NCBI GenBank assembly: GCA_946699065.1
Contig: CAMPDV010000225.1
Location: 372,001-436,000 of the forward strand
From: Loxodes magnus
Taxonomy: Eukaryota > Ciliophora > Karyorelictea > Loxodida > Loxodidae
DNA: 64,000 nucleotides
Reading direction: 5' to 3'
Position numbers and translations under genes: made by a program
Part shown: positions 13,144 through 36,491 of the stretch, piece by piece
Layout of the letters: every line of letters starts with the position of its first letter
How positions within the stretch are numbered: position 1 is the first letter of the stretch
Notes under the pieces: generated by a model
Told to the model about the DNA's origin: nothing
Database searches by the model: none
The model's input: the letters and a program-made list of their open reading frames with translations, nothing else

Positions 13144-16100
13144 ATGCTTAGCTTTTTTCTTTTAATGATTATGCACCAAACTTTTTCATAACCTTTATAA
13201 CTATTAACTTTTATTACTCCTACATATTATGACGGAACTAATTTTACTAATACTTCATTCGCCTAATTTAGTTATAATCCTCAAGTTAGTTCTAAAATTT
13301 CATGAGCTTTTACTGGATGATTCAAACCATAGATTACTTTAGGAGCCTACCATTCTATTTTAATTCTGCATAATGGAACTAATTGGACTTAATTTAATTT
13401 TTTTTAAAACTAGACCGAGTCGTAAACTTAGTTTAATGCTTATTAGGTTTCTTTTTCCCGCGTAAATGATTTTATTTTTGAAAATATTTGGATTTTTTTC
13501 TTAGTTTAAAAATAAGGTACCCAGCATTTATTTTGCTATGCAAAAGGAATATAAACTACAAGCAAACATTGATGCAATTCTTTTAGCGATGATAGACAAA
13601 TATACTTCGATTTATACTCAAATTCTTACATTTAAATTGGAAGTTCCCTCTCTAATACCTATAAAGGCTGATTGCAAGATATAAGATTCTATACTAATAA
13701 CCAATTATTTGATGAATCTGGGTTTGTTAATTTGTTTTCAATTTATCTATAGTCTTTCGGTTGTTAAGGCTATTATGATTTTTATTCTGTAAATCCATGC
13801 TAGCCTTGTAATGATAGATGTCTTACTTGTAATGGATCTTTAGATACAAACTGTTTGTCTTGTAGATCTAATTAGATTCTAGACAAGAACTAAACATGTT
13901 AATGTAAAGATGGATTTACTTCTAATAGCTCTAGTCCTTTTTAATGTGAATAATGTCTTAACTACATTCCTTTTTGCCTAAACTGTTCTAGTTCTTCTAT
14001 TTGTACTTCATGTAATACAACTAAGTATTTAAATTTAGATGGAACTTGCTAAGATAGTTGTCCTAATACATAATAAGATAAAGATAATGATCATAAATGC
14101 AAACTTTGTAATTGAGCACTATCTTATTGCTTAGAATGTAATCTAACTGGAACTGTTTGCACTAAATGTAGTAGTGGATATTATTTGCAAGGAGGAGTTT
14201 GTTTACCTTGCAATGTTATGTAAGATTGCAAGGCTTGCCAAAATGGAGTTACTTGCATTTAGTGCGCGATTAAGCTTCTTTATTCTAATTTATGCTATGA
14301 TTCTTGTCCTTCAACTCATTAAGATCTAAATGGAGATAAAATATGTGAGCCTTGTAATTTAGCTATCTAAGATTGCATAGAATGTGCTTAAGACATTTTG
14401 AAATGTACAAAGTGTGCTGATGGTTTTTGTATAGGAGTTGATTTAAAATGCTACGCTTGCTCAGTATCAAATTGTAAAACATGCTCAAATGATGGAAGCT
14501 TTTGCAACGAGTGTAATGTACCTTACAAACTAGAAAAGGCAATAAATAAATGCTCATTAAATTGCCCAAAAACTGAATAAGATATAAACTCAGATAGAGT
14601 ATGTAACTACTGTAGTTAAGAAGTTTCCAATTGTTTAGAATGCTAAGAAAATATTCTTTAATGTACTAAATGTCCACAAGGATACTATATAGATGTCAAC
14701 TTTTAATGTTCCTCATGCTAAACTATTGATCCTTTTTGTATAAGTTGCTTAGATAAAAATACTTGCCAAGAATGTTCTTATCCATATAAATTATCTTCCA
14801 ACTAATGCTTAAATAAATGTCCTATAACAGAGCAAGACTTTAATAATGATAGAATATGTGAAAGTTGTAATGCTAAAATTTAAAATTGCTAATAATGTAC
14901 AGAAGATGGATTATATTGTACTTTATGTACGAAAGGGTTTTATTTGAGTAACTAACAGGATTAGTGTTTACCTTGCTCAGATTTTACTCAAAATTGCTAA
15001 GATTGTGATTCTTCTTAGTGTCTTTCGTGCTTAAATTCCTATAAATTAAGTTAAATAGATAAACAATGTTACGTTCAATGCCCTGAAACTGAGTAAGATT
15101 AAGATAACGATGGAATATGCCAGACTTGCAGATAATCAATTTCTAATTGTATTTAATGTGATTAGCAAGGAACTTCTTGCAATGAGTGTGATAAAGGCTA
15201 CTGAAGCAACAAAAGCAAAGAGTGTGATGAATGTTCACTTAAAATTGATTTTTGTAGTGAATGTACATAAGATGGGTAAAACTGCTTGGCTTGCTAATAC
15301 CCTAAAAAACTATAAGGCAATTAATGTTTAAATAGCTGCTTAAAAGGCTTTTATTATAACTATTAAAACATTTGCTAACCATGCTATAAAAAAATATCCA
15401 ATAGTGAATGTGTCGATTTATGTCCAAGTTATGAATAAGATATAGATGATGATAACATATGCTAAGCATGTAGTTACGGTATAGATAATTGTGAGAAATG
15501 CCATGAAGTAAATAAAACACTAATTTGTGACTAATGCTTCGATAATCAAACTTTATGACTAAATTCTTGTCCTTCATGTGATGCTATTCATAAAGATTGT
15601 ATCAAGTGTTAAGATCAAGTCACATGCCTTCAATGCAAGGCAAAACTTTCTAAGGGCGCATGTAAAGAAAAGTGCGACGAAACAGAATAAGATTATAACT
15701 AAGATTAGATTTGTGATTCTTGTAGTGAAGAGATTAAACATTGTAGCAGATGTGGTTAAAGCATTAAATAGTGCTTAGAATGTGAAAAAGGATACTTTTC
15801 TTAGAACTAAGAATGCATCCCTTGCTCAACCTTTCTCAAAGATTGTACTGAATGCTCGAGTTAAGAAGCTTGCACTAAATGTGAAGATTCTAAAAAGCTA
15901 TCAGGGAGCAAATGTCTAGAGAACTGTCCTTCTAATTAATAAGACTAACAAAATAGGGGTATTTGCTACCCATGCTAATTTACTATTAATAAATGCCAAT
16001 AATGTTCAGAAAATGGATCGATATGTTACGCTTGCATATATCTTTTTACACCTAATGAAGATAATGTTTGTGAATTTAATCAAAGTGGAACTTAAAATAA

Positions 16101-17727
16101 GTCAAGAGAGCATGATGAAACTAATTAAAATGAAGAAAAAGAGCAGAATAGTGAATATGATGATGTAACATTAGATAGTCTTGAAGTATCAGATAGAGTA
16201 AAAGATTATATTAAGCAAATTTAATTTATTTAGAATACAGCTATTCTTACTGGAGTAAGCACTGCTACAACACTTATCCTTATTTTACCCTAAGAACATT
16301 CTATTTCAAACTGATTTACACTTATGTTAGCAACTGAACTATTTTTTTCAAGTGCTTATATTCAGGTAGAAAAACCAGATATACTACTTGCATATTATTA
16401 CGAGTAGAATTAAAATATTTTTTATTAGCTTCAACAAAAAATAAACCACGATTAAGGTGACCAACAAATCAGCAATTATAATTTGCGAGTTTTGGGATAT
16501 AAAAGTTACACTTACATTAAAAATGCTATCGTTTATAACATTTTTATCTTTGGAGTTTTACTTGCTGATGCTTTTATAAACTTACTTTCAGCATTATTTT
16601 CCTTTTAATATCTAAAAGAAATAAGGTTAAAGTATTTCCACTTTAGGATCTCTATTTCTCTATATTTACTCTTTATCTTTAAAATAAGCCTTTCTGTAAT
16701 ACTTCAACTATCCGATCCAAATTTCTAGAATGCATTCTATTCTTTAAGCACTCTATTTGCCGTTTTTATTCTCGTAAGTTTCTTAATTTAGATCTTGGAA
16801 TTAATTGGAATAGTTTTGTCTTTCTTAATAGTTAAGAAATATTTCCAAATGAAGAATAAGATAAATCCAGAAAATTAAGACTAATAAAAGATAATGGACC
16901 AACATACTATTAAGTTCTTTCCTATATTCGATGAACTTAGACTCTAAAAGAAAGCTTTAATCTTCTACCCTATTTTTCTCATAAGAAGAGTATTACTTTC
17001 CGTTATTTTAATTGGCTTGATTAACTTCCCTTTAGCTTAGATAATCTTATGCCTAGCTACTAGTTTACTATAGCTAGTTTACATTCTTAAATGCAAGCCT
17101 TTCAGATCCAAGCTACTTAACTATACCCATTTATGTTAAGAGTTATGAGTTTCTATTTTATACTCATTTAACTTCTATTTCTATGCTTTAGGAGAAAAAT
17201 AGAACAGTAGAGGGTTAGGAAACATTAGCTCTAATTAGTCCTATAAAGTGGGTTGTGGATTAATAATAACTTCCAGTGCTATTACATTCATAGGTATATT
17301 ACTTTGCTCTGTAGTAACGATAAAAGAAATCATATAAGCAGTAAGAGAAAAGAGAAAACAGGAAAGAGAACTAAAGAAAGAATAGCAAAACGATGATTAA
17401 GCGTAGAGTGTATAAATAAGCATCAATCTGTACAAAGGATAAAATTTGAGCACTTCCTAGGATTTTAAAATGATTACTAATGAATAAATTATATTAGATG
17501 AAAATCAAGGCTCTTAATTAATGTCTACATAAAGATAGTTGAGATACAATAGGAAGAACAAAAAGATAAGGCATTAAGATGATTCTATCTTATAGGTAAT
17601 AATTTAACTTCAGATTGAAGATTTAATACAATAGCTTAACAAAACTTAGAAGGTTGACTAATTCTAAAAAAAGTAGAACGAAGGAACGAAAGGAGAAAAA
17701 CCGAGGAGGAAGGAGTCTGAGGCTTGA
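13144..17727 (+). CDS. Giant LamG-like, Cys-rich (furin-like) multi-membrane receptor, copy 1
   Basis: A single frame of 1527 residues runs from ATG 13144 to TGA 17725-17727, without introns. Residues 1-16 are a signal peptide (MLSFFLLMIMHQTFSQ). About 17-215 resemble a laminin-G/concanavalin-like fold (GWFK near the start, GWLQDIRFY near the end). About 218-980 are dozens of CxxC-type modules, with recurrent CP-x-TEQD-x-x-x-D and CxxC spacing as in furin-like or growth-factor-receptor Cys-rich repeats. About 1028-1400 hold roughly eight hydrophobic segments. A Gln/Lys-rich cytoplasmic tail follows. Ciliates have large families of such surface proteins, often labelled by weak matches to IGF-binding or zinc-finger LSD1 families. 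In-frame TGA at 13303 and 13318 encodes Trp conserved in both paralogues (44559-48977, 56859-61547), as does the TGA in SISNWFTLM (copies 1 and 2). Ligand and signalling partner are unknown. Confidence 0.85.
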
Positions 17728-20700
17728 AGTTAACAAAGTTTCTTTATACTTAAAATATAGAATTTTATACCATTAAAGCTTATTTTTAAACAACTATTGA
17801 AACAAATAGAAAGAAAAGAGAAATAATTTAATCATTAAGTTGTAAGAGATAATCAAACAGGTAAATTAAAAGATGATAAATACTACAAATTTCCTCTTAA
17901 GTTAGGTAGTTAGGTAGCTATTTCTCTATATAATATAATATGAACCTAAAAAAGGAAAAAGTATGATGATAATATATATTCTTAGAAATGAAAAAGTAGA
18001 GATAATCCTACTTTTAGTTTTTAAGCTTTGAAATATAATTTTTAATAGCTTTAGTTATTAATTAAGCAGATCAAAAAGAACTAAAAATACTTCAAGCTAT
18101 AAAGGAAATAATACAAAAGAAATGCTTAAATTGGGAATTTATAAGCTAAATTTAATAATTGAATAGATCATAGCATTCTAATATGCTAGTTATTAATCAA
18201 GTCTAGTTTCATTCCTACGCTTCCATTTCCTTAAGTTATTATTTTGTTCCAATTTATTTAAATTCTATCTTAGACTATTAAAAGACTAACTCCTATTTAA
18301 TCCTTAACAGAGATATAAAAATCTCTTTATACTGATATAAACTTCAGTCACATAAACTGATACCAGTCTAACCATCTAACTTATTGCAGTATTTTAGAGT
18401 AGCTACTTAAACAGCAGTTTCCTTTATACCATTAAACATATATCTTCGACTCTAACTTTCATGATATCTAATCTAGATATTAACAACTTGAATCATACTA
18501 ATTTCTAGATTCAAGAGGATGAAAACGCATCTGGAGTTATTTCCCATTTATTTGGGTATCAAATAAGGGAATTCAAGATAATAAAGAGATGGTAGGACCA
18601 AATATGGTCATTTCAATCAAACTAAAACGTATAAAGACAGAGTTATCTAAAAATACTTTAGGTCCATTATAAAGATTTTGCTTAGATAGATTTTCACTTC
18701 CACTATAAAATGGGAAATTAGAATACCAGTGGAAATTGAAATGAGGCTGAGATTGAAAAAGTAGATATCTAAGTTATAAGAATTAGATGAGGGATGTAAA
18801 TTAACTAGACTAAGTAATCTAAATAATTTAGAACTATTCCATTAATTTTGGATTATTAAGCTTCTAATCTAAAGATAGGGATAAAGCTTAAATTAGCAAA
18901 ATTTAAATTAACTAAGCTAAAGTTAAAAGTCTTATGGAAGATAATAGTAAGATTTGCTAATTTGAAGATATGAAATAGCATTAGTATAAAGATGACTTGA
19001 AAGAAACTTAATGGCATAAGTATTACGAAAAGGCTATTTATTAATAGATGGTACTAAGGTAATAAAGATCTTATTTCTATATGATATCATAATATTGAAA
19101 ATTCAGAAAATAAAGGAAAAAAATAAAAAACTGGATGATATATTTCTCTCAAACTTTGGAGGTCATTTAACAACATAATCAGAACTTCTATAAAAGTAAA
19201 TAGTTAAATCTTCAATAAATATATATAAGTTAAATAATTAATGAGAAGGAGCGAAAGAATCATAAGACAACATTTCGCATAGTTTCCTAAAAGGAGAAAA
19301 GTAAAAAAGTTAAAACTAAACTTTTATAATCAAGGACTTTCTTTCAAATAAAGCCCAGAAATACAAATTGAGAGTTATTATCTCTAAATTTAAATAAATA
19401 CCTTTTTTAAAATGAGTGATTAAGTTTTTTATTTTTAGAATAGAATAGAATAAAAAATATCCTAAGAATGAAAGGATTAAAGAAGCTATTTGATAAAAGG
19501 TAAATAAGAGCAAGGATAATTGAAAAATACTTGAAATTACATTTTTAAGAAAATAAAGCCTTTGCTAAAGCTATTTTAGGTTAATGAAATAATATCTTTA
19601 ATCCTTTTTTCTTTCTCATATTAAAAGCTTCGTAAGTCTCTTATAAAGAAAATAATAATTTAATAGCTTAGATATATATCAGACTAATAAGCATGATTCT
19701 TTGTTTCTGCCTACAATTATGAGTTATTTTCATTTTATTCCTTTAAGATTCTTTATCCAGTCTCGCTTCTAGTCTTTTAGCTCGTGAGCTCATTTGATTA
19801 GCCAATTATCGCTTATTAGTTGAAATAAGAAATTATAGAGATGATTTCAACTAAACAGTTTAGAACTTGCTCAGCATTTTCCTTTCATTGCCACTTTTCT
19901 AATATACTTGTATAGTTAACTTCTACGAATTACTGCAAGTGAAGAATATCTTGCTACATACCAATCAAATTCCTAATATAAGTAATCTTTAAACTATACC
20001 TACTAATGATACTATGAATCATTTGTCTATTTGATTCTCTTTTAATGTAATTACTTACTTCATAGGTTTGATTGATATGCTTTACTTAAATTGACATCCC
20101 TTAAGCCCTAATTTTATAAATATAACAATCAAATATTTTTTTGGCTTCATAGTCCTTTTCCTTTAAGTCTCTTACTAAACTTGCTTTTATTCCTTTTTTC
20201 TCATTTTGTTAAATTTACCAATATCAGTTTCAAATCCAATAGTTAGAAAATCAAATTTCTATTTGATTAGAAAACTCTTAACTCGAATGCGCTTCTGTGA
20301 AGGAAGATGCAGAAAGCTTATAATCCCTTGATGGGTTATACTATAGAGGGAAATAAACTTAAATAGGTGAGTGTAGTTCTAAAAGTTAGTCGATATCTTC
20401 TCTCTAAGATTTCAACTATTCAAAGGTATTTTTTTATAGATGGAAACGAAAGACGCTAAATATGGAAAATATTCATCGTTTATTTCACGCAAGAACGGAT
20501 ATAAAGTGAGATCAGAGAGAAATAAAGGTAACGAGAAGCCAAAAAGTAGCAAACTAGATAAAGGTAAAATATGGATGTGATAAGATGAAGAAGAAAGAAA
20601 GAAGGCCAAGTGGGAGAGTGATAAGGAAATGATTATTTAGGTAAAAATAAATTTCATTATGAGTTTGTAGTATGTTTAGAGAAAATTTTGGTGTCACATA

Positions 20701-21873
20701 TGATCAATCTTTTCCACATTGTAAAAGGAATTATTTAGTTTTCTCATCTTTTCTTAAGTTGTTATATAAGCGGAGTAATAAAATTCAATTTATAAGGCAA
20801 ATTAGAGTTTTAAAACCAGATAATTAAGATTTTATACTTTGAGGTAAATATGACTGCTTTATATTAGATATTCTATTAAATATACATTAGTAAGGGAAGA
20901 AGTTTTTTGTTTGAGTCTAAAAAGAAAAAAGTAGAAAGTGATTTCAAAGTGAAAAATATCAAAATGACATGAATAACAATAGTTAGCAGTTTCTATTTGA
21001 CTATCTCATGGAATGTCCATCAAAAGAGAAAGCAGAGGAAAAGCTAAGCAGGAAAAAAGAAAATTGACTTATAGATTAAAGATTTTCGATTTCTATTTAG
21101 ATCCAAGAGAAGCTTAAAGAGTAAAATTAAATGGCAAGTTAAATTTAAAAATGATGCTATCCTTAAAAGCAATTTTTAAGTTGCTTTTTATTATACCAAA
21201 CTAAACTAAATCAAGCCAAAGAAAATCTTTCTCCTTTTTAGTTAAGAATTTAGCAAAATGCTTTTATAAAAGTACCTTAAACTTAGTACTTTAACATATG
21301 TAATATCTATATTTTAATACCCTCTAGTAGCTATCTTTATAGATTAGATGGTAGACTAAATACTAACTTATCTCATATTCTATACAGATTCAGATTTAAA
21401 TATAAGGATATTGGTGAAGAAATATAGCTTTACGCTGTCTTATAGTAGGTTCATTTGATTATAGATGCTTCACTGCTTTAAAATTCCTTTTATTGAGCTA
21501 CTAGATTTTCTCTAGTTTTATAATAGTCAATAGCTCTTCGAGTCTTTAATTTTCAACTCTGCAGTTTTTTATTCTTACTAAGAAAAAAGTTAAAAGAGTA
21601 GATTTGGAATTTTCCATTTGTATTACCAAAAGAATTATAAGAGGAAAAGAGAGATTAAGAAGAGCATATAGAAGGATAAGTTCTAGAATAGTGCTAAAGC
21701 TAAATGGTGAAAATGAAATTTCAAGCAAAGAAAGGTAGACTTTTGCATGATGCAAATATAAAAGCCTAATCTTCTTAAGACAAACTACCTACTGACAGTA
21801 ACTTCTCAAATATAAGAGGCTAAACAAAGAGAAGATAATCTTTTAGTCGGAAACAATAAGAAATGATCCGTGA
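17728..21873 (+). CDS. Long reading frame continuing in phase after receptor copy 1; possible multi-membrane protein
   Basis: The frame of receptor copy 1 continues past its TGA for more than 4 kb, if TGA is read as Trp. Some stretches are convincing protein: about 19680-20330 contains segments such as IFILFLQDSLSSLASSLLA and YFFGFIVLFLQVSYQTCF, followed by a basic, charged region (about 20430-20640, KDAKYGKYSSFISRKNGYK). Others are doubtful: at 18721-18760 three TGA codons occur within eight, and the other two frames look at least as good there. The first in-frame ATG after 17727 is at 18589. The last in-frame TGA before the ubiquitin-like gene is 21871-21873, which I used as a provisional end. 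I read it as at least one membrane-protein gene of unknown start. A fusion to the receptor is possible but not favoured, since both paralogues stop at a similar point. Confidence 0.35.
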
Positions 21874-22063
21874 GAAACTTCAAGTTAAAATATTACATAA
21901 CTCAACATAAATATTCCAGTGAATCCACAAAAAGAATTCTAAGTTAGATAGTCAACGAGAAAACTGATTAAAGCATCATAAATAATTAAGCATTTATAAA
22001 CTTTTCATTAGAAACTAAATTATAATAGATTTAAATTAAAGCAGATAGAAAAACATTATAAAA

Positions 22064-22741
22064 ATGTAAGGTATGATTAATGTACAAGTGATATATAAGG
22101 ATTAAACCATTCCATTGGAGATTCTATAGAACGATAAAATTAAAGAGCTGAAGTGAAAATTGAAGAAGGAAATAAAGTTAAAGGTTAAGCATTAAGTATT
22201 GTTCTTTGGAGAAAGCATTTTATCAGATGATTAAACTGCGGAGGAATAGAAAATCTAAACTGGATCTGAGATAGTGTTAGAAGAAGGAGTGATGAAAGGA
22301 TCTCCTGCATAATAGTTTACCTTTGTAGATATGGAAAATAAAAATTGTAGAATATTCAAAGGATTTAGTAATTCAGCTCCGAAGTGAAGAGTAATATCTA
22401 AAGGAATGAATTTAGAGGGAAAATGTGTAAATTCAAGTTGTGAAGCTTATTAAAAAAAAGTATGGGTTATGAAGGACTTTGGTGCTTTTAATTTAAATGA
22501 AGAAATAAGAAAAGCAAATTGTCCATTATGTAAAAATAAGACTAAAGAAGTAGAAAATATTGGATTTTATAAGTGCAGTTACAAAGTAGAAGGAGAGTAT
22601 CAAACATCACAAGGGGATGATAAGGAAGTTTCTTTCAAGGAAATAGTAGATAGAAGCGACTAATTCAGAACTTTTGCAGATACTAATTAGGATAAAATTC
22701 AGTGGTACTATTGTAAGATCGTCGTCAATAACTTGTAATGA
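22064..22741 (+). CDS. Ubiquitin-like domain protein with C-terminal Cys-rich domain
   Basis: A 225-residue frame runs from ATG 22064 to TGA 22739-22741. An ATG three codons downstream (22073, MINVQVIYKD) gives a start that fits the ubiquitin fold better. Residues 4-80 match the ubiquitin-like pattern: a first strand, DKIKELKWKLKKEIKL, then HQVLFFGESILSDDQTAEEQ. The C-terminal part has GKCVNSSCEAYQKKVWV and NCPLCKNK, then IGFYKCSYKV, typical of a domain seen with ubiquitin-like domains in many protists, in which a Pro-Lys-Trp precedes a Gly-x-Asn-x-x-Gly segment. That Trp is encoded by TGA here (22385-22387), and another TGA (22154-22156) is Trp in the ubiquitin-like part. The stop follows a Gln TAA directly. 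The cellular role of this family is not established; a link to ubiquitin-type binding is inference. Confidence 0.82.
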
Positions 22742-23124
22742 AACTAGTTTATATTAAATTTTTTAAATCTGAAATTAATTTATTACATAATGATTAAAGT
22801 AAATCAAATAATATGAGCTAAATAAACTAGATCGAAAGAGAGATTTATAAAAGATAAAATTGTTATGATTATGATTTTTTTAATGTGATGCTTATCTTAG
22901 TTATTAAGATATATCTAAGTTCATAGATGAGAATCTTAGAGTTTTGCTTTAATATATACGGTAGTTGTATGCTATATAAGATATTTCAATGTTAAGCTAA
23001 TTTAATTTTGAAAGCGGGCGAATCATCTAAGAAGGATTATATTTAGAATTATATACCTTGAATGCAATAGATGGTTATGGCTCTTTGCTTATTTTAATAG
23101 TTCTGGTGTAAGAATTAATAAGCT
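22742..23124. other. Intergenic stretch before tRNA-Pro
   Basis: About 380 AT-rich bases without a supported gene. A polymerase III gene starts right after it; internal promoter boxes are in the tRNA itself. Confidence 0.45.
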
Positions 23125-23196
23125 GGCTGCTTGGTCTAGTGGTATGATTCTCGCTTCGGGTGCGAGAGGTCACGGGTTCAATTCCCGTAGCAGCCC
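23125..23196 (+). tRNA. tRNA-Pro (anticodon CGG)
   Basis: A 72-base cloverleaf. The acceptor strands GGCTGCT and AGCAGCC pair perfectly, with C as discriminator. The anticodon stem CTCGC/GCGAG encloses the loop TTCGGGT, with CGG at 23157-23159, which reads CCG. The T arm ACGGGTTCAATTCCCGT contains a good B box. No intron and no encoded CCA. The sequence is very close to eukaryotic tRNA-Pro. Confidence 0.95.
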
Positions 23197-23205
23197 TTTT
23201 TTTTT
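23197..23205 (+). terminator. RNA polymerase III terminator of tRNA-Pro
   Basis: A run of nine T directly follows the discriminator base, the standard pol III stop signal. Confidence 0.85.
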
Positions 23206-23248
23206 AGACCATAGTCAAATATTTTTAGCCTTTATTGAAAAAACTTCC

Positions 23249-23659
23249 TCAGCGAAGATGTATACAACAACTCAAGTATTTAGTTGATTTGGCTAAAGAT
23301 TTGATCTTTTAATAAGCTTTAGCAGTTCTAAATTATTTATTCATTTAGACTACTTCTTCTTATCTTTTTAACTATTACTTTTGCTAAGATTATTGATTGC
23401 CAGATTTAAAACTTGGCTGATTTAATTTTCCTTTCTTGAAAGTGCAAAATATACAAAATATTGCTAATTTAGTTCAAGATTATAAACTACTTAGTCATTC
23501 TAGCTCTTTTTGTATTTACCTTTTGCATATACCACCTTTCAACTACTCTTTTTCGCTATAATAAGGTAAGCATTTTTTAACCGAGCATAATTGCTTAGTC
23601 GCCACTTATTCTTTATTATGCCTTTTAATTCTATATGCTTATTAAGTAGCTTAGTTCAT
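23249..23659 (-). CDS. Possible small basic protein, unknown
   Basis: A 136-residue frame runs from ATG (complement of 23657-23659) to TGA (23249-23251), with two in-frame TGA codons that would be Trp (ELEWLSSLQSW). It is basic, with a Cys-containing hydrophobic patch (LAIFCIFCTF) and a Gln/Lys-rich second half. No family recognised. It lies on the same strand as and 26 bases downstream of the tRNA-Gln gene, whose T-run lies between them. Because AT-rich DNA gives open frames easily in this code, the call is weak. Confidence 0.3.
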
Positions 23660-25252: not shown

Positions 25253-26608
25253 ATGAAGACTAAGTAGTGGATTCATTTAAGACCAAGTGGACAAGCTGCA
25301 AGAATATTGAGCATTGATATGTACACATAGAATAAAAAAGGGATGAAAGTGAGTTATATTGTGAAAAGGTTGAAGGAGTAGAAGAAGAAACTGAATATTG
25401 AGTTTAAGGGAAAGGATATTTTTGTTAGTTATAGGAATTTAAAAGGTATAACAGAAGTTTTGCAGTACATAGCGGATGGGGATCATACTATACCGTTTGA
25501 GATATGGAAGAGGGGAAGGAATTAATATGAAAGAATTGACTAGCTGATAAGGGTTGAAATTAAATAGAAGAAGCAAAACTTAGATTAAAGTCAAGATCAG
25601 AATAAAATGTAGGCAGAAGAAATGGATAATACCTAGTATTCTATTATAGTTTTTGATAGTAAGAAGAAAAAAAAGTGGATTAGACATAGATCACGTTCTA
25701 GAAGCAGTTAAAGAAACTAATCAGTAGAAAAATAAATTAGCTATGAAGTTTCTAATTAGAAAACATCTAATTAGCTAGCAGAAAATAAATAAGTACAGTA
25801 ATTATTTTCTAAATTAGTCTGAAAAAAAGAGACTGAAAGAAATATATCCAGAATGAAAGTGAAAATGGATATGAACAAAGTTTCGAGAATTATTCTTCAC
25901 CTTTATGAAGAGTTTAGGAGCAAGACTTTAATAGCTTATCAAGACTATAGAGCTAAATAGAAAGTAGTAAGTCAAGCTAAACTGAAAGTTAGCAGCATAG
26001 CTATATGACTAAAAGTAAGTTTTTTAATCCAAGAATGTGGAGTTTATATTTAAGAAGATAAAGAGCAGTGAAGTAAATATAAAATGTCCTTCTCTAGTAG
26101 AACTATAAGTTAATATAGCATTGAACTGGATAAATCAAATAGCAGTACTTTGATAAATTAAAAAGAAAGCCAAGTCAAGTAAGAAAATGAGAGTGGATAT
26201 AGAAATAATTTATTTGAGAAAGATCAAATAGGAAGAAACAAGCATACTAGTCACGAATGTGCGTGGTCTATTGAGGTATAAAATTAAAAGAGCAAATAGG
26301 ATGAAAGATTATGGGAAAGCTGCTAGCCTAATTAACTAATATTCTCTCTATAAGAGATTGTTCAAACTTTTCCTTTTGATCAAGAAGAAAGCTTATTTTA
26401 ATAGAAGATGCCTATTTTTGTAGAAGGAGCTTATGATAACCAAGGAGTATTTAGGTTCAATGAGCAAGAGTAAAACTCTAACTTTGTTATATCGAAGGAA
26501 GAGAAAGGTTTATGCTAGCAAGGTTTTGAAAGTTCAAGGTAATATCCAACTGAGCGAACAGAATTTCTAAACAAGCACGGACTTGGATACTCAAGTTTCG
26601 AGAGCTGA
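25253..26608 (+). CDS. Tandem paralogue 1 with an unrecognised ~105-residue N-terminal domain
   Basis: A 451-residue frame runs from ATG 25253 to TGA 26606-26608; TGA codons at three internal sites are read as Trp (for example LVWKKE, IAIWLK). Residues 1-105 form a compact mixed alpha/beta-looking domain ending with the motif IPFEIWKRG and then a helix. The gene at 26904 repeats this domain (IPFEVWSKG at the matching place). The rest is Ser/Gln/Lys-rich, with an Arg-Ser patch (RHRSRSRSSQ), and looks disordered. The size and the pattern of the N-terminal domain recall a ubiquitin-like or PB1-type fold, but I cannot match key residues, so no function is given. The two genes are head to tail and 295 bases apart. 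Confidence 0.62.
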
Positions 26609-26903
26609 ATTTGTAGCTTTGAATATTTTCGAAAAATTCAAGAAATTTTAGTTAATTTTTTTTCTAGAAACCTTCAAACAATCAACTTCACATAAACACA
26701 AGCACTTAAAAAATTAAATCAGCTTGATCAATTTAATCTATTTTATCTACAAGAAAGCTTCAGGATTCTAAAAGTGGTAAAAAGGAAAAGAGATATCATA
26801 AAAAATTTCTAAGGGAAAAATCTATTAAAATGAACTATTTGAACTTGATATCTAATAAAGCTGATATCATCTAATTTATTTTCAATCTTATTTTATAGAT
26901 AAA

Positions 26904-27581
26904 ATGGAATCTAAACTATACTTCATGTACAAACCATATAATTAAGCAAAAACTATATGGAGTATCGTTTTAGATAGTAATGATAATAAGGAACTGAAAG
27001 TAGAGAAGATTATTAAAGAGCTAAAGTAGTAGGGGAAAAAGATGAGGCTAGATGTTGATAGTGTTGAAATGTAGATTGTGTATGAAGATACGAAAAAAAT
27101 GGAACTAGTGATATTGCAAAAAGAGGAAGGCTTTAAATCTATACCATTTGAAGTATGGAGCAAAGGAAAAAATGGGTTTGCTAGTGTCCATAATTTAATT
27201 TAAGTTGTGACATCTGAAAGAGGATCTTCAGTATCATCTTCATTTAAGCAAGCCAAAAAAATGCAAACTGTTCCTGAAAACTTAGAAGAAAATAACAGCA
27301 ACTTAAATAAGCGAACTCGGTCTATAGCAAACTAAAAAAAAACAAAGAATAAGCTTCAATTAGAGAAAAGTGATTACTCAAAGTACTAAGGTAATATAAA
27401 GAAAAGTAAGGTAGGGGAAATAGAAAATATAGAAAGCTTATCCTTTGAGCAAACAGAAAATAATTAGCCAAGCTTACTTCAAGGATAAATTTTTTAAGGA
27501 GTTCAACAGTATCTATTAGAAAAATATGGTGTAGATTAGATTTCAAAAAGTGAGGATGAAAGTGGAAATGAGTTGACATGA
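26904..27581 (+). CDS. Tandem paralogue 2 with the same N-terminal domain
   Basis: A 225-residue frame runs from ATG 26904 to TGA 27579-27581 without any internal TGA, which itself supports coding over 226 codons. Residues 1-105 align by eye with the 25253 gene: a starting strand, an Ile/Trp-Ser-Ile/Val-Leu-Asp segment, a helix (VEKIIKELKQQGKKM against VSYIVKRLKEQKKKL), then IPFEVWSKG. The C-terminal half is Ser, Lys, Gln and Asn rich and not similar to the first copy. No known domain recognised. It is a likely tandem duplicate with a shorter, diverged tail. Confidence 0.66.
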
Positions 27582-27831
27582 TATATGAACACTCATATAA
27601 TAGATTAATGTAATAATATTAATTTATATATCTCTGCTTGGTATATCCTTCTTTAATACTTTCATTATAAATTATAAAACGCTAAGAAATAATTGTATCA
27701 ATAGTATTTAATAGCCTGCATAAATAAGCAAGAGGTTAAATAAAATTGTATTAGGGATATAAGTTGGTAAGGTAGATTGATAAGATAGATGCTTATATTA
27801 TAGCGAAATTATTAGTTAGTAGATAATTATA

Positions 27832-28431
27832 TCAGTCAGAACTTAAGAGCTTGGCTTATTATGTTAAATTTAGAATTTGAAGAATGAAAACTAATTAGTG
27901 GTTAAAAGTAAATTCAAGACAAATGAGAGTCTGGAATTTTTTAAGTCTTAGAGATATATGGAAAAGAGAAATTTATCCAAAAAAGGATGAAAAAGCTAAA
28001 AGCTGTATAAATGTGAAGCTGATTATTTAGAAAAGTCTATTAGTGGCTACTTTTTTTGCAGACTTATTTTATAGGATAAAGATTAATCTAGAATTATAAA
28101 AAAAGAAAACATCAAAGTGGCTTCCCACTTGTTTTTTTAGTTCTGCTAAGTATTTTTTAACGCTATGATATCTCTTAAGTCGAAAATTTCTTGGTCCATC
28201 TAAATTAGTACCACAAAGCTTCTTCATCTCCTTACACTCTTCAGTCTTAATTCCTTTCAAGACTTATACCAGCCTAAAATCTAGTTCCTTCAATTATCTT
28301 TCAAAAATCTAAGCTTTTAATGTACTTTTCTTTGACTATAAATTTCCTCAGGTTGCTTGATATTTAAAACCTTTAAACTCACTTAAAAGTTATTTGAATC
28401 AATATTTCTTAACTCGTTAACGAAGAATCAT
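27832..28431 (-). CDS. Possible basic protein divergent from histone H4
   Basis: A 199-residue frame runs from ATG (complement of 28429-28431) to TGA (27832-27834). Its first 105 residues are strongly protein-like and basic (LKAQIFERQLKELDFRLVQ, then TEECKEMKKLCGTNLDG and RFR-like repeats near RNFRLKRYHSVKKY). The second half is hydrophobic and less convincing. Two in-frame TGA codons near the start would be Trp. I recognise no family; it is not one of the core histones. Its ATG lies 93 bases from the H4 ATG in divergent orientation. Confidence 0.42.
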
Positions 28432-28839
<408 letters not shown>

Positions 28840-28964
28840 TGTTATATAATAATATTTATGATTAATCATATTTGATTATCCTTATAACTCTCTTTAACTT
28901 ATATCATAATTCCTTCATATTAAATCTATAATTTCTAAGCTGAAAAGTCCAAAACGTAAGTCAT

Positions 28965-29519
28965 ATGTCATGTCTGAAATAAAATATCAAAAGTGTTATC
29001 AAAAGTCTAAGCTAAATATATTGGACATGATGTACTGTATTTGGTTGGTGAGATGGGAGATCCCACCTGAATAGAATAAGTTGAGAAAGAGGTTTAGTTG
29101 TATTAAAAATGAAGGACTTAAGAGCTTATTTTAAACAATTTGCTAGAACTAGATAAACTTAATTAGCATTTAAGAGCTTTTAGTCCTGAGTTCTCTGAAC
29201 AAAAGATACATAAAAAAATTAATCGAATCTAAGTCTGGCAAGCTTCGTTGATCCTTAAACAGTCTCTCTAATACCAAGTATATATCTAGAACTAGTAGAT
29301 ATGGTTTATATAGTAGTAAGTCTATTGTAACTAAAAGAATAAAAACTCGTAGTAAAATAACTGAACTCAGTTAATTAATTAACAATATCAGTTGTAAATA
29401 TCTAAGGTATAATTTAAGTATCATTAACCAAGAAAAACAAGGCCATAAGCTAAGATAAAAAGATAGTAAGATTTTAGATTGTTTAGTCAGATATTAAACT
29501 TGAAATAAGCTTAATATGA
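28965..29519 (+). CDS. Possible unknown protein downstream of H4
   Basis: A frame of 184 residues from ATG 28965 to TGA 29517-29519. Some parts look coding (KMKDLRAYFKQFARTRQTQ, SIYLELVDMVYIVVSLLQL), but it needs seven or so TGA codons read as Trp, many near the start, so chance is a real alternative. No family recognised. Listed because nothing else explains this stretch. Confidence 0.22.
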
Positions 29520-29627
29520 GACCAAAAAGAGAATTTTTTTTTTTTATCTATACTAAATATTTCAAATATTTAGAATAAAAGAGGAAAGATTGGTAAGGAT
29601 CTTAAAATAAAGTGCTATGATTTATGG

Positions 29628-30416
29628 TCAAAGAATATAGATTCTCACTTCATAATTTTCTACCTTCTTGTTAAGCTTTAATTAATTAATCAGCCATTGT
29701 TTAAAGCAGGAGCTTGTATCCTATTTTAAGTAGCCTAATTAATTTTAAATTTCTTTTATCTTTGAGAATTTTAGTTTAAACTTCTTAGTTTTTGACTTTA
29801 AATTATTCTCAGTTTGAGCTTTTAATCTTATAAGTAGCTTATTTGACTAAACAGTTTTGATGCCTCTGGATTTGATTTAAATTTAATTAAGACTAAAATT
29901 TGAAAGTTAAAAAGGGTAAAATATTTCGAAGCTTTTCTTTCAAGCTTCAAATTAAAATTTTATCTATTATCTTTAGTTTAAATCACTTGCTTATCCTTAG
30001 TTCTCCAGCTCTTTATCACATTATGTTTAATAGACTTAATTAAGTTTCAATATTTTATATTTCTAACTTAGCTTTCGGAGTGTTACCTTGCTTAATCTGT
30101 CTATTTGTCATTTACTTCTTTAATGCTTTTAATTTGACTAGGTAGTATCCTGAGCTACCATTATTTTAAGCTGCAACTAGAATTATACCAGTTTGTGTTC
30201 TTTCAGAGCTTGATAAAAGAATCTTAACTAATCTTGCTTTCGCTTTCCCTTTTTCCACTCAAATAAAATCTCCACTTTCTCGATTCTTTTTCTCAGCTAA
30301 ACAGCGAAATTAGAATTTATTCTTCCTTTCTTAGTCCTTTAAGCGCAATAATCGCTACTAAAAATCTTATTTTTATATCACCAGCATTAAGCTATTAGCT
30401 TTCATAGCTTAAACAT
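29628..30416 (-). CDS. Possible basic coiled-coil protein, unknown
   Basis: A 262-residue frame runs from ATG (complement of 30414-30416) to TGA (29628-29630). It is very rich in Lys and Gln with helical stretches (LRKRIEKVEILFEWKKGK, DQLRFFYQALKEHKLVQ). About five in-frame TGA codons would be Trp. No domain recognised. It would be divergent from the MORN gene at 30710, about 290 bases away. Confidence 0.33.
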
Positions 30417-30709
30417 AGAAAGAGAGTAAAGAGAATCTAGCACAAAGCTTTAAAAATAACCACACGAAAAAAAATCCTACACATGTATATTTTCTAATCC
30501 AAGCTAAATAAAGTAAAGCTTCTCACTTAGTACTACCATAAGTATCAATCATATTTAATAAATAAGGACTAAGGTTAAAGTAATGGATTGAAGAGAAAGA
30601 AACTAAGTGCATATGATGAAGGAAATGGAATAGAAATCTTAGAATTTTATATTGTAAATATGGATTTAAACTCACTTTGAAGATAAAATTTAATAAAATA
30701 TTTTGAGAA

Positions 30710-33700
30710 ATGGATGAAGGATAAACTGGCACTTTAAAGGAAACTAAAGTTTATTAGTATTCGAATGGAGATAAATATGAAGGGGGATGAGAAAAAGGAT
30801 TAAAAGAAGGTTTTGGAATTATTAAGTTTGCTAGTGGCAATTCTTATTAAGGATAATGGAAGAACGATATATAGCACGGTTATGGAATTTTCTAGTGAAA
30901 AAACGGAGATATGTATAGAGGAAATTGGTAGGAGGGAATAAAGTAGGGATGAGGAATGCTTAGTTATTAAGATGGTAGTTATTGAGAAGGAGAAATGTTG
31001 AATGATAAACCCTTAAAAGGCAATGGAACTTTCAAGTTTGAAAATTAAGATAAGGTTGAAGGAAACTGAGAAGAAGGAAAAATTTAAGGAATCGGTACCT
31101 TTCGATTCTAAAATGGGGATATATATGAAGGAGGTTTTCTAGATAATTAGTAAAATGGTTAAGGAATTTTAAAAAAGAAAAATGGAGATTTATATGAAGG
31201 GGAGTGATTAAATGGAGCTCTAACTGGAAAAGTAATTATTCTTTATTCTGACGGAAGCAAGTATGAAGGGGAAATTAAAGAGAATAAGAGATAAGGTGAA
31301 GGAATTTATTACAATCCTGATAATAGCAAGTGGTAGGGAGAGTGATCGTAAGACAAACCTTATACTGGAAATGGAGTTTTAATTAATGAGAAAGGAGAAA
31401 AATTAATAGGGTAACTAGTTAAGGGAAAAAAATAAGGCAAAGGGTAATATATCTTTATTGAAAATGAATAATATGATGGAAGTTGAATTAATGATATGAA
31501 ATATGGATTTGGAATTTATAAATACAAAAATGGAAGCAGATATGAAGGTAATTGAGAAGAAGATGAAAGATAAGGAAAAGGAATTTAGTACTTTCCAAAT
31601 AATGAAACATATGATGGAAATTGATGAAATGGTTAATAAAATGGCCAAGGAATTTTTAAATATGTCAATGGAGATATCTATGAAGGAAATTGACGGGAAA
31701 ATTATTAAAGTGGATTTGGAGTTTTAAAATACAGCAATGGAAATAAATATGAGGGAGAGTGAGTAAAAAATGGAAAGGGAGGCTTCGGAACTTTTTTCTA
31801 CTCAGATGGGTAAAAGTGATTAGGAGAGTGATAATAAGATAAGCCATACACAGGAGACGGATTTTATATCTATGAAAATGAAGATAAATTTAGTGGGAAG
31901 TTAATTTTAGGTAAAAAATAAGGAAAAGGAAATATGGATTATTCAAATGGAGAAAAATATTAAGGAGATTGGAACTAAGATAATTATCATGGGTATGGAG
32001 TTTTTACTTATAAAAATGGAGATAAGTACGAAGGTAATTGATAAAATAACAAAAAGTAAGGAAAAGGAAATATGAATTATTCAAATGGAGAAAAATATTA
32101 AGGAGATTGAAACTAAGATAATTATCATGGGTATGGAATTTTTACTTATAAAAATGGAGATAAGTACGAAGGTAATTGATAAAATAACAAAAAGCAAGAA
32201 ATAGGAATGCTTAACTATTCAGCAGGATGATAATGAAAAGGGGAGTGAAATTCCGACAATCCATACTTCGGGAATGGAATTCTAATTTTAAAAACTGGAA
32301 ACAGATATGAAGGACAGCTCCTACAAGGCTAAAAGTGAGGAAAAGGAAAACTTTACCTAAAAAATGGTTTAACATGAAATGGTAATAATTTCGACATTAA
32401 TGAAAGCCAATAAATAAATGCCTACCAAGATATAAGTAATTCAAAATAACTAAACCCACTACAAAAAGTTTGATATAACTATAATGCCTTTAAGGAAATA
32501 TAAAAATACTTAAATAAAAGGAATATAAGTGTTCTCTAGAAAGTGAGTAAGCACTTCTATAACTTCAAATATTACTTTGATTAATTAAAGATAAAGAAAT
32601 ACAAACTTACGAATTCCCAAATATTGAATAAAATGAAATGAACTTTCAGGTAAATTTCTATCTGTGAAATGCGAAAAATCATTATTGATTGTGAAAACTT
32701 TTCCTAACTATTTATTGACTAAATTCATGATGCTGCTTATTAGAGCTTTATATGTAGATAACTTCAAAGCAATAGTAAAAATGAAACTTTACAAGAACTT
32801 GAGATTTATTGCTGATAAAAAAATTTCAATCCTTTTGCGTTTTTACCAAAAAGTCTTAAGAAGATAATTTTTTCAGGGAAGCTAAAGGATTTCAGTTTTA
32901 ACTTCCTATAAAATTTAGAGAATCTGGAGAGTCTTTAAGTTATAGATCAAAATTAAGGATAGGGAATCACAGGCAATTTTTTGCTATAATTTTGTTAGAA
33001 CACACAACTAAAAAATTTGAAAATCGAAGGAAATAGTCTAAGCAACTACTTTATAAGATAATTTTTAAAGTCGAAAGGAGCTTAAATTTAAGAACTAGAC
33101 TTGAAAATAAGTTCGCAAATACAGGATTTTTTTGTATTATGCTCAAACTTAAAATGCTTGAACTCTCAAATCCATATATCAGCTAATTAAATATTGAGTT
33201 AAGCATAAAATTAGAATATCGAGCAACTAAATCTTGTAGGTGATTTTACAAATGAAGCATTTAAAGCATTTTTTTCTAAATAAAAATACACAAATCTAAG
33301 ATAAATAAGCATAGCTAATTGTACAAGTTTTAAAGGAGAAAACTTAGTAGTTTTATTATAGCAAGCTCCCTTTTTATTAGAAATCAAATTAGAAAATCTT
33401 TAGACATTATAAGATTCGGATATTAAGTGTATAGCAAGCTATGGTGAGAAATATGAATCAATAAATTTTACAAAAATGAAGTAAATTACTGAATAAACTT
33501 TGATATGTATTTTCGAAAAATGCTTGAGACTTAAGTAGATCGAGCTAAATAATATTAGTAATATTAGTAGTTAAGCTTTGATTACTATGAATTAAAGCTG
33601 CTTATCTTTAGAGGTCCTATATCTAAGTGATTTCTAGATTCAAGGAATATAGTGAATAAATTAAGTCGTTTTGTTGAAAAAATTGAAAAGTATACAGTTA

Positions 33701-33880
33701 AAAAATTTAAATTTGACATTTTAGGATATTGAGTTAATTTTGAATTCATGTCTGAATTTGGAAAATCTAGATTTAAGTGGATTTAATATTAAGTAATAAT
33801 TTCCTATATATAATTAAAAAAAAATACCATATCCTTTATTTAAAAATTAAGGAATTTTAAAAATTGATTATAGTTCATGA
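30710..33880 (+). CDS. MORN-repeat, F-box-like, leucine-rich-repeat protein
   Basis: A frame of 1056 residues from ATG 30710 to TGA 33878-33880, without introns. About residues 15-580 contain some 23 MORN repeats of 23 residues (pattern YSNGDKYEGxWxxGxxxGxG). About 587-625 resemble an F-box (FKEIQKYLNKRNISVLQKVS, then KHFYNF). About 690-1040 are leucine-rich repeats (LKNLKIEGNSLSNYF, LEVLYLSDFQIQG, LENLDLSGFNI). F-box/LRR proteins recruit substrates to SCF ubiquitin ligases, and MORN repeats often bind membranes or partner proteins, so a substrate-receptor role is a family-based inference. The MORN tryptophan is encoded by TGG or TGA at equivalent positions, for example GEW at 31207 and GNW repeatedly. 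The exact C-terminal end rests on the TGA after the last LRR. Confidence 0.83.
31921..32196 (+). repeat. 138-bp tandem duplication of two MORN units
   Basis: 31921-32058 and 32059-32196 are almost identical and the period is exactly 46 codons, so it is two MORN repeats duplicated recently. The Trp codon of one unit is TGG at 31970-31972 in the first copy and TGA at 32108-32110 in the second, a direct synonymous exchange. Confidence 0.92.
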
Positions 33881-35144
33881 TAGTTATCAAATCAGGATAA
33901 TGAATTTTTAAGTTTAAAAAAAAAGTTTAGGAAACTGAAGATATATAATAAAGGAATAGAAATTGGAAAAAATCAAGAAATTTTCGACGAGCAGTTAGGA
34001 ACTATAAATCTAAACAATAAACTATAAAATTAAAAATTTTAATTAGGACTAAGTATCATTAAATTTAACCTTGTTTTAGAGATTAAAATAATGTAGCTTA
34101 CGATTAAAAAAGTAAAAAGATTTGCCTCTTTTAATCATATTATATATCTAATAACTTAGGAGCGATCTATATTATTAATTGAAAATTAAGAGTTGATAAT
34201 ATAAAGATAATAGCTATTTAGTCATTTTCTTTTAAAATAATAAATCTTTTTATGAGATTTAGCTTTATAACCTTTGCAAATTCTTAAGAATTTTCTTTCA
34301 AAAAATTATAATTAAAATGTTTATAAAATGTTGAGAGATAAATTCAAGCCCCTTGGAAATTATCTCGCAATTTTTGGTTTTTTAATTAATTTTTATATAT
34401 TCAGTCTTAGTTTCAATCTCAACTCTAAAAAATATTGTTATCAATTTAAATAATTAGTTTGCATAAAACAGGTGAAAAATAGTTTAGATGAATCTAGATT
34501 ATTACCATTTGGTGAATTATTGTGATTCTAAAATTTCACATTTAAAACTAATTTTTTTTTCTCAATTTGCAAACTTTTTTACAAGCTCCCAATAAATAAA
34601 CTTATTAGATTACTAAAAGATTTTCAAATGTTATTATCACCGTTAAAAAGATATCATTTTGTATAAATTTTAAAATTTCTATCTAAATTAAGTTAATTAA
34701 AATTAAAAAACACTTAAGATCCATATTCAGGTTTTTTTGAATAAGGATTAAATTAAAAAAGTTTAAGAAAATTAGAAATATTTGGTGCTTTAATTAAAAG
34801 AGATTTGGTAGTTTTATAGTTATTAAAAATAAAAATTTAGGAATTTTAGGATTTATATTACAGTTTGAAATAAAATCATTGCTAGCAAATTAAAAATAGA
34901 AAAATCAAAAGATAAAATTAAGCATTGCTTTCTAATTTAAAAATGTGACTTTGATGATGAAAAGAAAAATTAAAAAACATTTATTTTAAAGGTTTTTTAT
35001 AAAGTTTAAGGCAACAAAAAAAAGGAAATTTAAATATTAGTTAATTAATTATAATTCATTTCAGATCGTAGACTGTAATAAATTATAAAAAAGGATTTAA
35101 GAAAAAACTTAAGAAAATATTTATAAAAAGATTAAATAGTAATC
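33881..35144. other. AT-rich region between two convergent MORN genes
   Basis: About 1.26 kb, the shared 3' side of two convergent genes. The plus frame stays open for a while after 33880 (Lys/Asn/Ile-rich), so a longer LRR gene cannot be fully excluded. No separate gene recognised. Confidence 0.4.
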
Positions 35145-36491
35145 TCAAAGTATGCGCTTTCCATTCTACCAAGCCTGCTCTTCTCTAATTCCATTTTTAT
35201 AAATATAGGCACCTGGTCCTGAAAATTAACCTTATAATCATTACCCTTCATATTTATCTCCGTTCTTATAATTAAAAACTCCGTATCCTTCCATTTTATC
35301 TTATAATCACTCTCCTTCATAAAAATCTCCATTAACAGAATAATAATTTCCTTTTCCTTATTTTAATCCGTTTACACTAAGGCCTTCATATCTGTCTCCA
35401 TTCTTATATATATTAATTCCAAATCCATTCGGTTTATCTTTAAAAAAATTCCCTTCATATATATCTCCGTTATTGTAATAAAAAACTCCTTTTCCTTACT
35501 TTATTCCCTCTACAAATTATCCTACATATTTATTTCCATTTTTATATAAACTTGTCCCATTTCCAAATATTTTACCTTTTAATCACTCTCCTTCATAAAT
35601 ATTTCCATCTATTCAATAAAAAGTTCCTTTTCCTTATTTAAATCCTTCTACGTATTAACCTTCATATCTATTTCCATTTTTATATTTATAAATTCCATAT
35701 CCATGCATTTCTCCATTTTTCAATTCTCCCTCATAAGAATTTCCATTTTCAAATTTTAATATTTCTTTCTTCTAAATTTATTATGTTTAATCTTACTAAT
35801 CTTCAATTTTAATTTCTTTCTAAGATTCAACATCGTTTATTTCCGTTTATGCTTCAGCATCTTTTTTTTCATGATATTAAATTTTATATTTTTCAAATGC
35901 TTCCTAAAATTTGGCATATTAATCTTTCATATTCTTTATCTCTCATTCTCTTTTTTTTGTATGCTCTTCTAAATCCTGCAGATTCATCGTTTTTTATTCC
36001 TCTGTTACGATTTAAATCTTTTCTTTTAAAATTTTTTTCTAATTTTAATACTATTATATTCTTTCTCTTATTTCCTTTAATTTATTTTTAGTTTCTTTTT
36101 AAAACTGATTGCTACTACTTAAGATAGTTTGGCTAATAAACAAAATTATCTGATTTTTTATTTTGCTTTACTTCTTTGATATTTTTTAGAAGCTTTGCTT
36201 TAGTTCGTTTTCTTATTTGGTTAGAATATCTAACGTTTCTTCTGCTTTTACAATCATACTTTCTCTTAGTTGAACTATATTCAAAATAGAATCAGTTACA
36301 GGTAAGTTTCTAGGATTAATTGTAGAATTTAAGTTGCATAGAGGACATTAATAGGAAGTATATTTTGAAAATTAATCGAAAATGCAAATCGTACAAACTG
36401 AATGTTACTCATTACAAGGAAGAGTAAGTGGAAGTCTTTATTAAGTGTCAAAGAGAGTTTAACACAAGGCACATTTAAAATTTTCAGCCAT
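35145..36491 (-). CDS. RING-finger, coiled-coil, MORN-repeat protein (putative E3 ubiquitin ligase)
   Basis: A 448-residue frame runs from ATG (complement of 36489-36491) to TGA (35145-35147). Residues 7-52 are a RING-like finger: C7-x2-C10, then C26, H30, C33 and C36, and C49-P-L-C52. About 75-235 are Glu/Lys/Gln-rich and look like a long coiled coil. About 245-440 are eight or so MORN repeats (NGNRYEGQYVEGFKQGKG type). RING fingers recruit E2 enzymes, so an E3 role is the family-based expectation, with the coiled coil for self-association and MORN for targeting. This order resembles tripartite-type ligases with MORN in place of the usual C-terminal domain. In-frame TGA codons fall on the MORN Trp positions (GEWL, GQWL). 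It converges with the MORN/F-box/LRR gene. Confidence 0.82.

Follow-up and report, generated by a model that had tools for sequence, protein, structure and literature searches.

UGA as tryptophan codon, stop codon and apparent selenocysteine codon in nuclear genes of the karyorelict ciliate Loxodes magnus

Introduction

A stretch of 64,000 nucleotides from the ciliate Loxodes magnus (assembly GCA_946699065.1, contig CAMPDV010000225.1; G000:C225:372001-436000), referred to as the window in the following, raises the question how the codon UGA can encode an amino acid and also terminate translation in the same set of genes. Based on the sequence of the window alone, a first-pass annotation of positions 13144 to 36491 had proposed that UGA serves both as tryptophan (Trp) codon and as stop codon and that UAA and UAG (UAR) encode glutamine (Gln), in agreement with NCBI translation table 27. 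This proposal was followed up in the window and in the assembly (705,730,643 bases, 7,843 contigs), from which loci were retrieved for comparison (L-numbers; C-numbers denote contigs). Statements taken from the literature refer to excerpts of the cited papers, unless their main text is named.

We assign a probability of roughly 97% to the interpretation that the window is karyorelict nuclear DNA following NCBI table 27, with UAR as Gln, internal UGA as Trp, UGA at the gene end as stop and selenocysteine (Sec) as a further meaning of UGA in a few genes, the proposed decoding steps included. According to these steps a many-copy tRNA with the anticodon UUA would read UAA and UAG as Gln, while internal UGA would by default be read as Trp, most likely by a near-cognate tRNA-Trp(CCA) with an anticodon stem of four pairs. 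Terminal UGA would be recognised by a release factor eRF1 whose pocket appears unsuited to UAA and UAG but has kept the reading of UGA, and termination would be helped by the closeness of this codon to the 3’ end of the mRNA. In a few genes hairpins similar to selenocysteine insertion sequences (SECIS) would set the reading as Sec. In the present analysis the meanings of the codons were established by homology, and the tRNA genes as well as the changes in eRF1 were identified; near-cognate decoding, the role of the 3’ end and the effect of the eRF1 changes are taken from the literature or inferred.

Internal UGA codons

Paralogous proteins were aligned with every TGA masked as X, the comparisons being directed and not independent of each other. 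The sets comprised five distinct thioredoxin reductase (TrxR) genes, one of them without Sec tail, and four glutathione peroxidase (GPx) genes. In the 26 TrxR and GPx comparisons in which a codon other than UGA faced UGA, this codon was UGG in 21 cases, AUU or AUA in four and UUC in one; UGA faced UGA in 68 of all 123 paralogue comparisons. The comparisons with structures in the PDB took in two TrxR paralogues and one eRF1. Aligned with the mitochondrial TrxR2 (1zdl), both Trp-UGAs of L017 and three of the four of L020 are opposite to Trp, the fourth being opposite to Phe, so that in the solved TrxR structures Trp is found opposite to five of six Trp-UGAs. The comparisons between TrxR and GPx paralogues are the decisive test and, by homology, prove Trp as the meaning of internal UGA. 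No pair of UGA and non-UGA codons was obtained from the paralogues of the selenophosphate synthetase SPS2 and of eRF1. One of the GPx genes (L032) contains three Trp-UGAs, which are matched in its paralogues by UGG or UGA and in a single case by Phe.

The first-pass annotation had placed TGA codons at the Trp positions of MORN repeats, which proved accurate for both MORN genes of the window (Table 1). In the plus-strand gene the Trp column of 20 repeats holds TGA 12 times, TGG three times and other codons five times, and in the minus-strand RING-like/MORN gene UGA occupies this column in three of eight repeats. Under a stricter motif TGA was found at the Trp column in 10 of 18 repeats of the plus-strand gene; these are 10 of the 23 TGAs among its 563 codons (hypergeometric p of about 5e-11). 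In the minus-strand gene three of six TGAs, the probable stop being counted, are located in the eight Trp columns (p of about 7e-5). When the MORN gene was scored under ten meanings of TGA (10 of the 20 residues were tried), Trp reached 225.5 bits and Phe 225.3, followed by Leu (198.3), Tyr (192.0), Ser (178.4), Lys (176.0), Cys (146.3), Gln (145.3), Arg (143.9) and Gly (119.3). Eight repeats were individually significant with TGA as Trp and five with TGA as Phe. The score thus points to an aromatic residue and is not decisive between Trp and Phe.

Furthermore, the in-frame TGA that had been annotated in the ubiquitin-like gene was confirmed, TGAs being located at 22154 and 22385, the latter within Pro-Lys-TGA-Arg-Val, and the Pfam ubiquitin domain was detected in its product with 39.2 bits (cut-off 25.4).

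The putative Cys-rich membrane receptors provide a different picture. The in-frame TGAs at 13303 and 13318 of the gene at 13144..17727 are part of the motif S-W-..-T-G-W, and S-TGA-..-T-G-TGA was indeed detected in the three announced receptor copies, at 13300(+), 57015(+) and 48821(-), of which the first alone lies within 13144..36491. In the compared parts of the receptors 33 UGA and four UGG codons were counted, one copy perhaps being partly out of frame, and no Pfam family reached its cut-off for the gene at 13144..17727 (VSP, 19.1 bits versus 31.4).

Several observations weigh against Trp as the meaning of internal UGA. Four of the 26 TrxR and GPx partners of UGA are Ile and one is Phe, Phe scores on a par with Trp in the MORN gene, and the receptor UGAs face UGG in none of 29 comparisons with non-UGA codons, Phe or Tyr being found in 10 of these. 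Because of the missing UGG partners and the equal score of Phe, the receptors and the MORN gene alone would be insufficient to prove Trp. The residues facing TGA, the tabulation of which had been suggested along with the annotation, therefore argue for Trp in TrxR and GPx, remain tied between Trp and Phe in the MORN gene and leave the receptors without such backing. Taken together, internal UGA is predicted to encode Trp in the genes tested, weakly so in the receptors.

UAR codons and tRNA genes

In the alignment of eRF1 with its human counterpart eight of 18 aligned UAR codons face Gln, at a background of 18 Gln among 415 residues, and TAA is the Gln codon of the catalytic GGQ. UAA and UAG are hence predicted to encode Gln, as the annotation had assumed. 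The window also contains a gene for a tRNA with the anticodon UUA, cognate to UAA, and all 40 scored genome matches to it (402 candidates) are identical across 72 of 72 bases, which amounts to at least 40 identical copies outside the window. By its resemblance to Gln tRNA this tRNA is presumably charged with Gln. Six genes identical to the window copy form a short array with a spacing of 275 bp (G000:C214:232591-234037), and further copies are spread across many contigs.

A DNA search for tRNA-Trp genes yielded 40 scored matches (131 candidates), 37 on contig C148 and three on contig C110. All but one of the C148 genes form a tandem array in which the unit recurs about every 241 bp (G000:C148:155434-165791), and the 27 of 37 copies that were fetched are identical at the tRNA. 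They carry the anticodon CCA, and their top anticodon stem pair 27-43 is an unpaired U.C, which leaves a stem of 4 bp. Since PMC13092985 (NAR 2026) cites a tRNA-Trp(CCA) with a 4-bp stem in Loxodes as known, the C148 genes are to be seen as a confirmation. The three tRNA-Trp(CCA) genes on C110 are divergent and have a full stem of five pairs, with T arms that pair poorly by eye. They speak against the short stem as the basis of UGA decoding insofar as it is not universal in the genome.

Alternatively, a nuclear tRNA-Trp(UCA) dedicated to this codon, or a tRNA altered by editing, might decode internal UGA instead of the tRNA-Trp(CCA) with the short stem. Although the tRNA listing of the genome is incomplete and editing would be invisible in DNA, two search patterns permitting UCA matched CCA only (2/2 each, the same two genes), and at nine tRNA-Trp loci ARAGORN reported CCA for every tRNA-Trp, the only UCA genes seen being three tRNA-Sec genes. 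Taking furthermore into account that the short-stem tRNA-Trp(CCA) is stated for Loxodes in the excerpt of PMC13092985, we consider this alternative improbable; the tRNA-Trp(UCA) for which a search had been recommended in the first-pass annotation is probably not the reader, this role most likely being that of the tRNA-Trp(CCA) of the array.

Putative selenocysteine genes and machinery

The genome appears to encode a selenocysteine machinery. Three tRNA-Sec genes with the anticodon UCA exceeded the Rfam cut-off, and an elongation factor (L066) exceeded the cut-off with eukaryotic SelB and eEFSec domains. Two selD genes (L028 and L029, minus strand) likewise exceeded their cut-off and contain the active site Gly-UGA-Gly-Cys-Lys-Val of the selenoprotein-type SPS2, with the Sec codon at base 1528 (reverse complement). 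Both lack UGA-Trp codons and have three UGG codons each, and the Sec-UGA precedes the stop by 335 codons and the presumed SECIS core by about 1,031 nt.

Five of ten TrxR matches (L016-L020) exceeded the cut-off of TIGR01438 (TGR), L016 and L018 being nearly identical. All five genes end in TGC-TGA-GGT-TGA (base 2950 and following), which is predicted to be read as Cys-Sec-Gly-stop with UGA as Sec codon. Upstream of this tail the four distinct genes contain two, two, two and four Trp-UGAs. UGA thus appears to have three meanings (Trp, Sec and stop) within one open reading frame.

A GTGA core was detected 43-45 nt past the presumed Sec codon in all five TrxR genes. The folding z-scores of the four distinct TrxR 3’ regions were -2.14, -3.92, -6.35 and -2.97 and those of the SPS2 regions -2.38 and -2.52, as compared with -0.05, -0.03, -0.54 and -2.16 for four control 3’ regions. 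Among the 10 pairs of helix I in the SPS2 paralogues three two-sided and one one-sided change were found, and among the 15 pairs in the TrxR genes L017 and L019 four two-sided and two one-sided changes, with no broken pair in either case; the pairs had been selected manually on the basis of the folds, and the TrxR count is confined to these two genes. Helix II is invariant between the SPS2 paralogues, the hairpin core of which is TTGA, the usual form of the SECIS core being purine-TGA. In L016 no hairpin was obtained in a fold of 190 bases, but it formed in a fold of 106 bases.

It may be argued that the TrxR tails simply encode Cys-Trp-Gly and that the downstream hairpins arose by chance. Rfam reported no SECIS at E-values up to 1 in the five TrxR loci, one control 3’ region reaches a folding z-score close to that of the weakest TrxR region, and the hairpin rule is only moderately specific, being matched as well by 10 (L016), 4 (L017), 13 (L019) and 10 (L020) of 300 base-shuffled sequences. 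This is opposed by the three tRNA-Sec genes, eEFSec and the two SPS2 genes with their G-UGA-G-C-K-V site, by the position of the GTGA core, 43-45 nt past the codon in all five TrxR genes, and by the three (SPS2) and four (TrxR) two-sided changes of helix I without a broken pair. A tail without Sec therefore seems very unlikely, and we retain Cys-Sec-Gly-stop as the predicted reading.

The Trp-UGAs of L020 (codons 394, 85, 75 and 40 of 482) precede the presumed SECIS core by about 308, 1,235, 1,265 and 1,370 nt. Since the Sec-UGA of SPS2 falls within this range, distance to the SECIS does not separate Trp from Sec. Termination, too, may depend on more than nearness to the poly(A) tail: the 3’ untranslated regions (UTRs) of L. 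magnus have a mean length of 53 bp and a median of 41 bp (PMC11441545), and helix I ends about 100 nt past the stop in L017 and L019, so that both stops would be expected to function about 100 nt or more away from the tail, beyond the mean 3’ UTR. None of the six Trp codons in the two SPS2 genes is UGA, as compared with 10 of the 19 Trp codons in four TrxR genes (p = 0.051, Fisher test). As a tentative model, about which we have more doubt than confidence, UGA in the TrxR mRNA would mean Trp at two to four positions further upstream, Sec where it is the penultimate codon and stop two codons later, the choice between Trp and Sec not being made by SECIS distance; the TrxR SECIS may act on the nearest UGA alone, and the SPS2 SECIS may act on the whole mRNA and have driven UGA-Trp out of SPS2. 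Gene-specific gating of this kind has a precedent in that the mammalian enzymes differ in their tolerance of the Sec position: TR1 accepts Sec only at or near the natural position, TR3 at any position tested (PMC3737529).

GPx was considered as a further selenoprotein and rejected, all four genes found (L030-L033) having a Cys codon at the active site. For the SelT/SelW-type genes (PF10262; L014 and L015) no Cys-x-x-UGA was found upstream by eye or by motif search, possibly due to introns. In addition, elongation-factor-like GTPase matches occur in many near-identical copies (G000:C256, G000:C232), about 1.6 kb apart on C256, which may reflect tandem gene amplification or a repeat.

Release factor and gene ends

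Two eRF1 genes were detected on contig C196 (L002 and L003, bases 1456-2763). They are located 35 kb apart, encode 436 residues with 96% identity and both exceeded the aRF1/eRF1 cut-off. L001, a stronger match to eRF1_1, was rejected as eRF1 since it is pelota. Relative to human eRF1, L002 carries the changes E55A, T58R, S60Q, V66A, N67V, R68Q, L69K, S70A, L72Q, L124F, Y125F, D128E and K130T and retains NIKS, the GTS loop, Cys127, Asn129 and Phe131; by eye L003 is the same at these sites, except for K at human R65. The motifs are accordingly RAQNIKS, FLCENTF and Ala70 (computed for L002, by eye for L003), so that altered eRF1 residues, which the annotation had suggested looking for, were found. 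The same three motif entries, with Ala at position 70, have been described for Loxodes striatus, in which the TASNIKS and YCF motifs are said to jointly ensure UGA-only specificity (PMC4695839); L. magnus differs in that two eRF1 genes were detected. Based on these motifs, the eRF1 of L. magnus is predicted to be of the UGA-only Loxodes type. In eRF1, Glu55 attracts A at the second and third codon position and Tyr125 supports Glu55, and in Paramecium, whose eRF1 reads UGA only, residues 55 and 58 are changed too (PMC5681627). Since Glu55 attracts A, its loss would be in line with blindness to UAA and UAG while UGA is kept.

Every stop fixed by homology is UGA, namely those of histone H4, which ends at TGA as previously annotated, directly after its Gly-Gly, and of the five TrxR genes, counting the near-identical pair. 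None of the genes examined showed a stop at UAA or UAG; these included eRF1, SPS2 and GPx, for which the first UGA past the conserved part was taken as the end. UGA is thus predicted to be the only stop codon while also coding. The end of the ubiquitin-like gene at TGA was corroborated. For the minus-strand RING-like/MORN gene the annotated end is a probable stop (35147-35145), which is likely but unproven because another in-frame TGA follows at 35063.

In the non-TrxR genes having an in-frame UGA within the coding sequence, the nearest one is at least 31 codons upstream of the stop, and in L. magnus coding UGAs have been reported to be scarce across the approximately 20 codons preceding the stop (PMC11441545). 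In TrxR the nearest one is the Sec codon, two codons away. Furthermore, the five TrxR genes and both eRF1 genes contain a second in-frame UGA exactly three codons past the stop, and the codons in between vary among the TrxR paralogues. The second UGA may be regarded as a tandem stop, which gives the impression of selection for a backup.

The Condylostoma code (table 28), in which all three codons both encode and stop, shares UAR as Gln and UGA as Trp with table 27. It seems highly improbable, since the homology-fixed ends are UGA throughout, no UAR stop was found in eRF1, SPS2 or GPx either, and both the eRF1 motifs and the published L. magnus genome point to Loxodes, which bears out the preference of the first-pass annotation for table 27. 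An explanation of the in-frame UGAs by lesions in pseudogenes, by errors of sequencing or by introns that are spliced out, with UGA as stop only, could appeal to the very short introns of L. magnus (mode of 17 bp, PMC11441545) and to the large, variable receptor copies, and can practically be dismissed in view of TGAs at conserved Trp positions of intact housekeeping genes, where they alternate with TGG between paralogues, and of their enrichment in the MORN column, lesions being expected at random.

Comparison with known systems

For the karyorelict nuclear code, Seah et al. 2022 is cited in Seah et al. 2024. For the karyorelicts including Loxodes, NCBI table 27 with UGA as sole stop and also as Trp codon is given by Seah et al. 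2024 (PMC11441545), who published L. magnus assemblies of 848 Mbp (micronucleus) and 706 Mbp (macronucleus). The code is therefore already published for L. magnus and is identical to that found here, the window representing an independent rediscovery, from raw sequence, of a rare nuclear code without dedicated stop. The main text of PMC11441545 contains no occurrence of tRNA, eRF1, release factor, selenocysteine, selenoprotein, SECIS or thioredoxin reductase, so that the tRNA array and the Sec genes are additions to it. No report on Loxodes selenoproteins or on three meanings of UGA in Loxodes was found in the literature searched, most subscription papers and preprints being outside its range; the review PMC4695839 touches on both Loxodes and selenocysteine, but its excerpts establish no link between them. 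The code and the eRF1 type are already known; the Sec layer is added here.

In Condylostoma magnum and Parduczia the same ambiguity of UGA between Trp and stop occurs, extended by Sec to a ‘codon triality’, and a TrxR has been shown in which the SECIS is located near the Sec codon (Swart et al. 2016, PMC4967479). According to the excerpt of the same paper no tRNA-Trp(UCA) was found in the nuclear genome of C. magnum. Here, in contrast, the Trp-, Sec- and stop-UGAs are mapped together in several TrxR paralogues, and SPS2 adds a Sec-UGA far upstream. A tRNA-Trp(CCA) with a 4-bp stem has been described for Blastocrithidia and Condylostoma (Kachale et al. 2023, as cited in PMC12153298 and PMC13092985), with the top pair of the anticodon stem broken as in L. 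magnus; here the mismatch is U27.C43, with at least 37 copies on one contig and the three 5-bp copies elsewhere. According to the excerpted sources, Blastocrithidia eRF1 furthermore carries Ser67Gly, and the corresponding residue of L. magnus is Ala and not Gly. We take Ser67 of Blastocrithidia to be Ser70 in the human numbering.

UGA is not known to be a stop codon in Euplotes crassus. As presumed for L. magnus, one codon encodes two amino acids in the same gene of this ciliate, there Cys and Sec (PMC4695839), whereas here UGA presumably means Trp, Sec and stop. Each of the five TrxR genes appears to unite these three outcomes in a single frame, while the eRF1 of the organism belongs to a type described as UGA-only. 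These genes may offer a handle on how the ribosome picks tRNA-Trp, Sec-tRNA or eRF1 at one codon.

Features of the window

The window is A+T-rich, with 15-31% GC in steps of 2 kb. The features discussed above are compiled in Table 1. The frame of the plus-strand MORN gene extends into a leucine-rich region (32399-34046, +).

Table 1. Features of the window (coordinates are positions in the 64,000-nucleotide stretch).
Feature	Position	Strand	Remarks
Cys-rich membrane receptor-like gene	13144..17727	+	read with UAR as Gln and UGA as Trp; 3’ end (TGA 17725-17727) uncertain
Ubiquitin-like gene	22064..22741	+	TGA stop 22739-22741; exact start codon uncertain
tRNA gene, anticodon UUA, cognate to UAA	23686..23757	-	Rfam tRNA, 64.2 bits
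Histone H4	28525..28839	+	ends GGC-TGA (28837-28839) directly after C-terminal Gly-Gly
MORN-repeat part of gene	30710..32398	+	frame continues downstream; gene end not fixed
RING-like/MORN gene	35145..36491	-	start 36491; RING by eye, Pfam reports MORN only
Receptor copy, S-UGA-..-T-G-UGA motif	48801..48821	-	outside 13144..36491
Receptor copy, S-UGA-..-T-G-UGA motif	57015..57035	+	outside 13144..36491

Two regions of the window, 36001-40000 and 50001-54000, are very A+T-rich (15-16% GC) and are located between gene-bearing parts.

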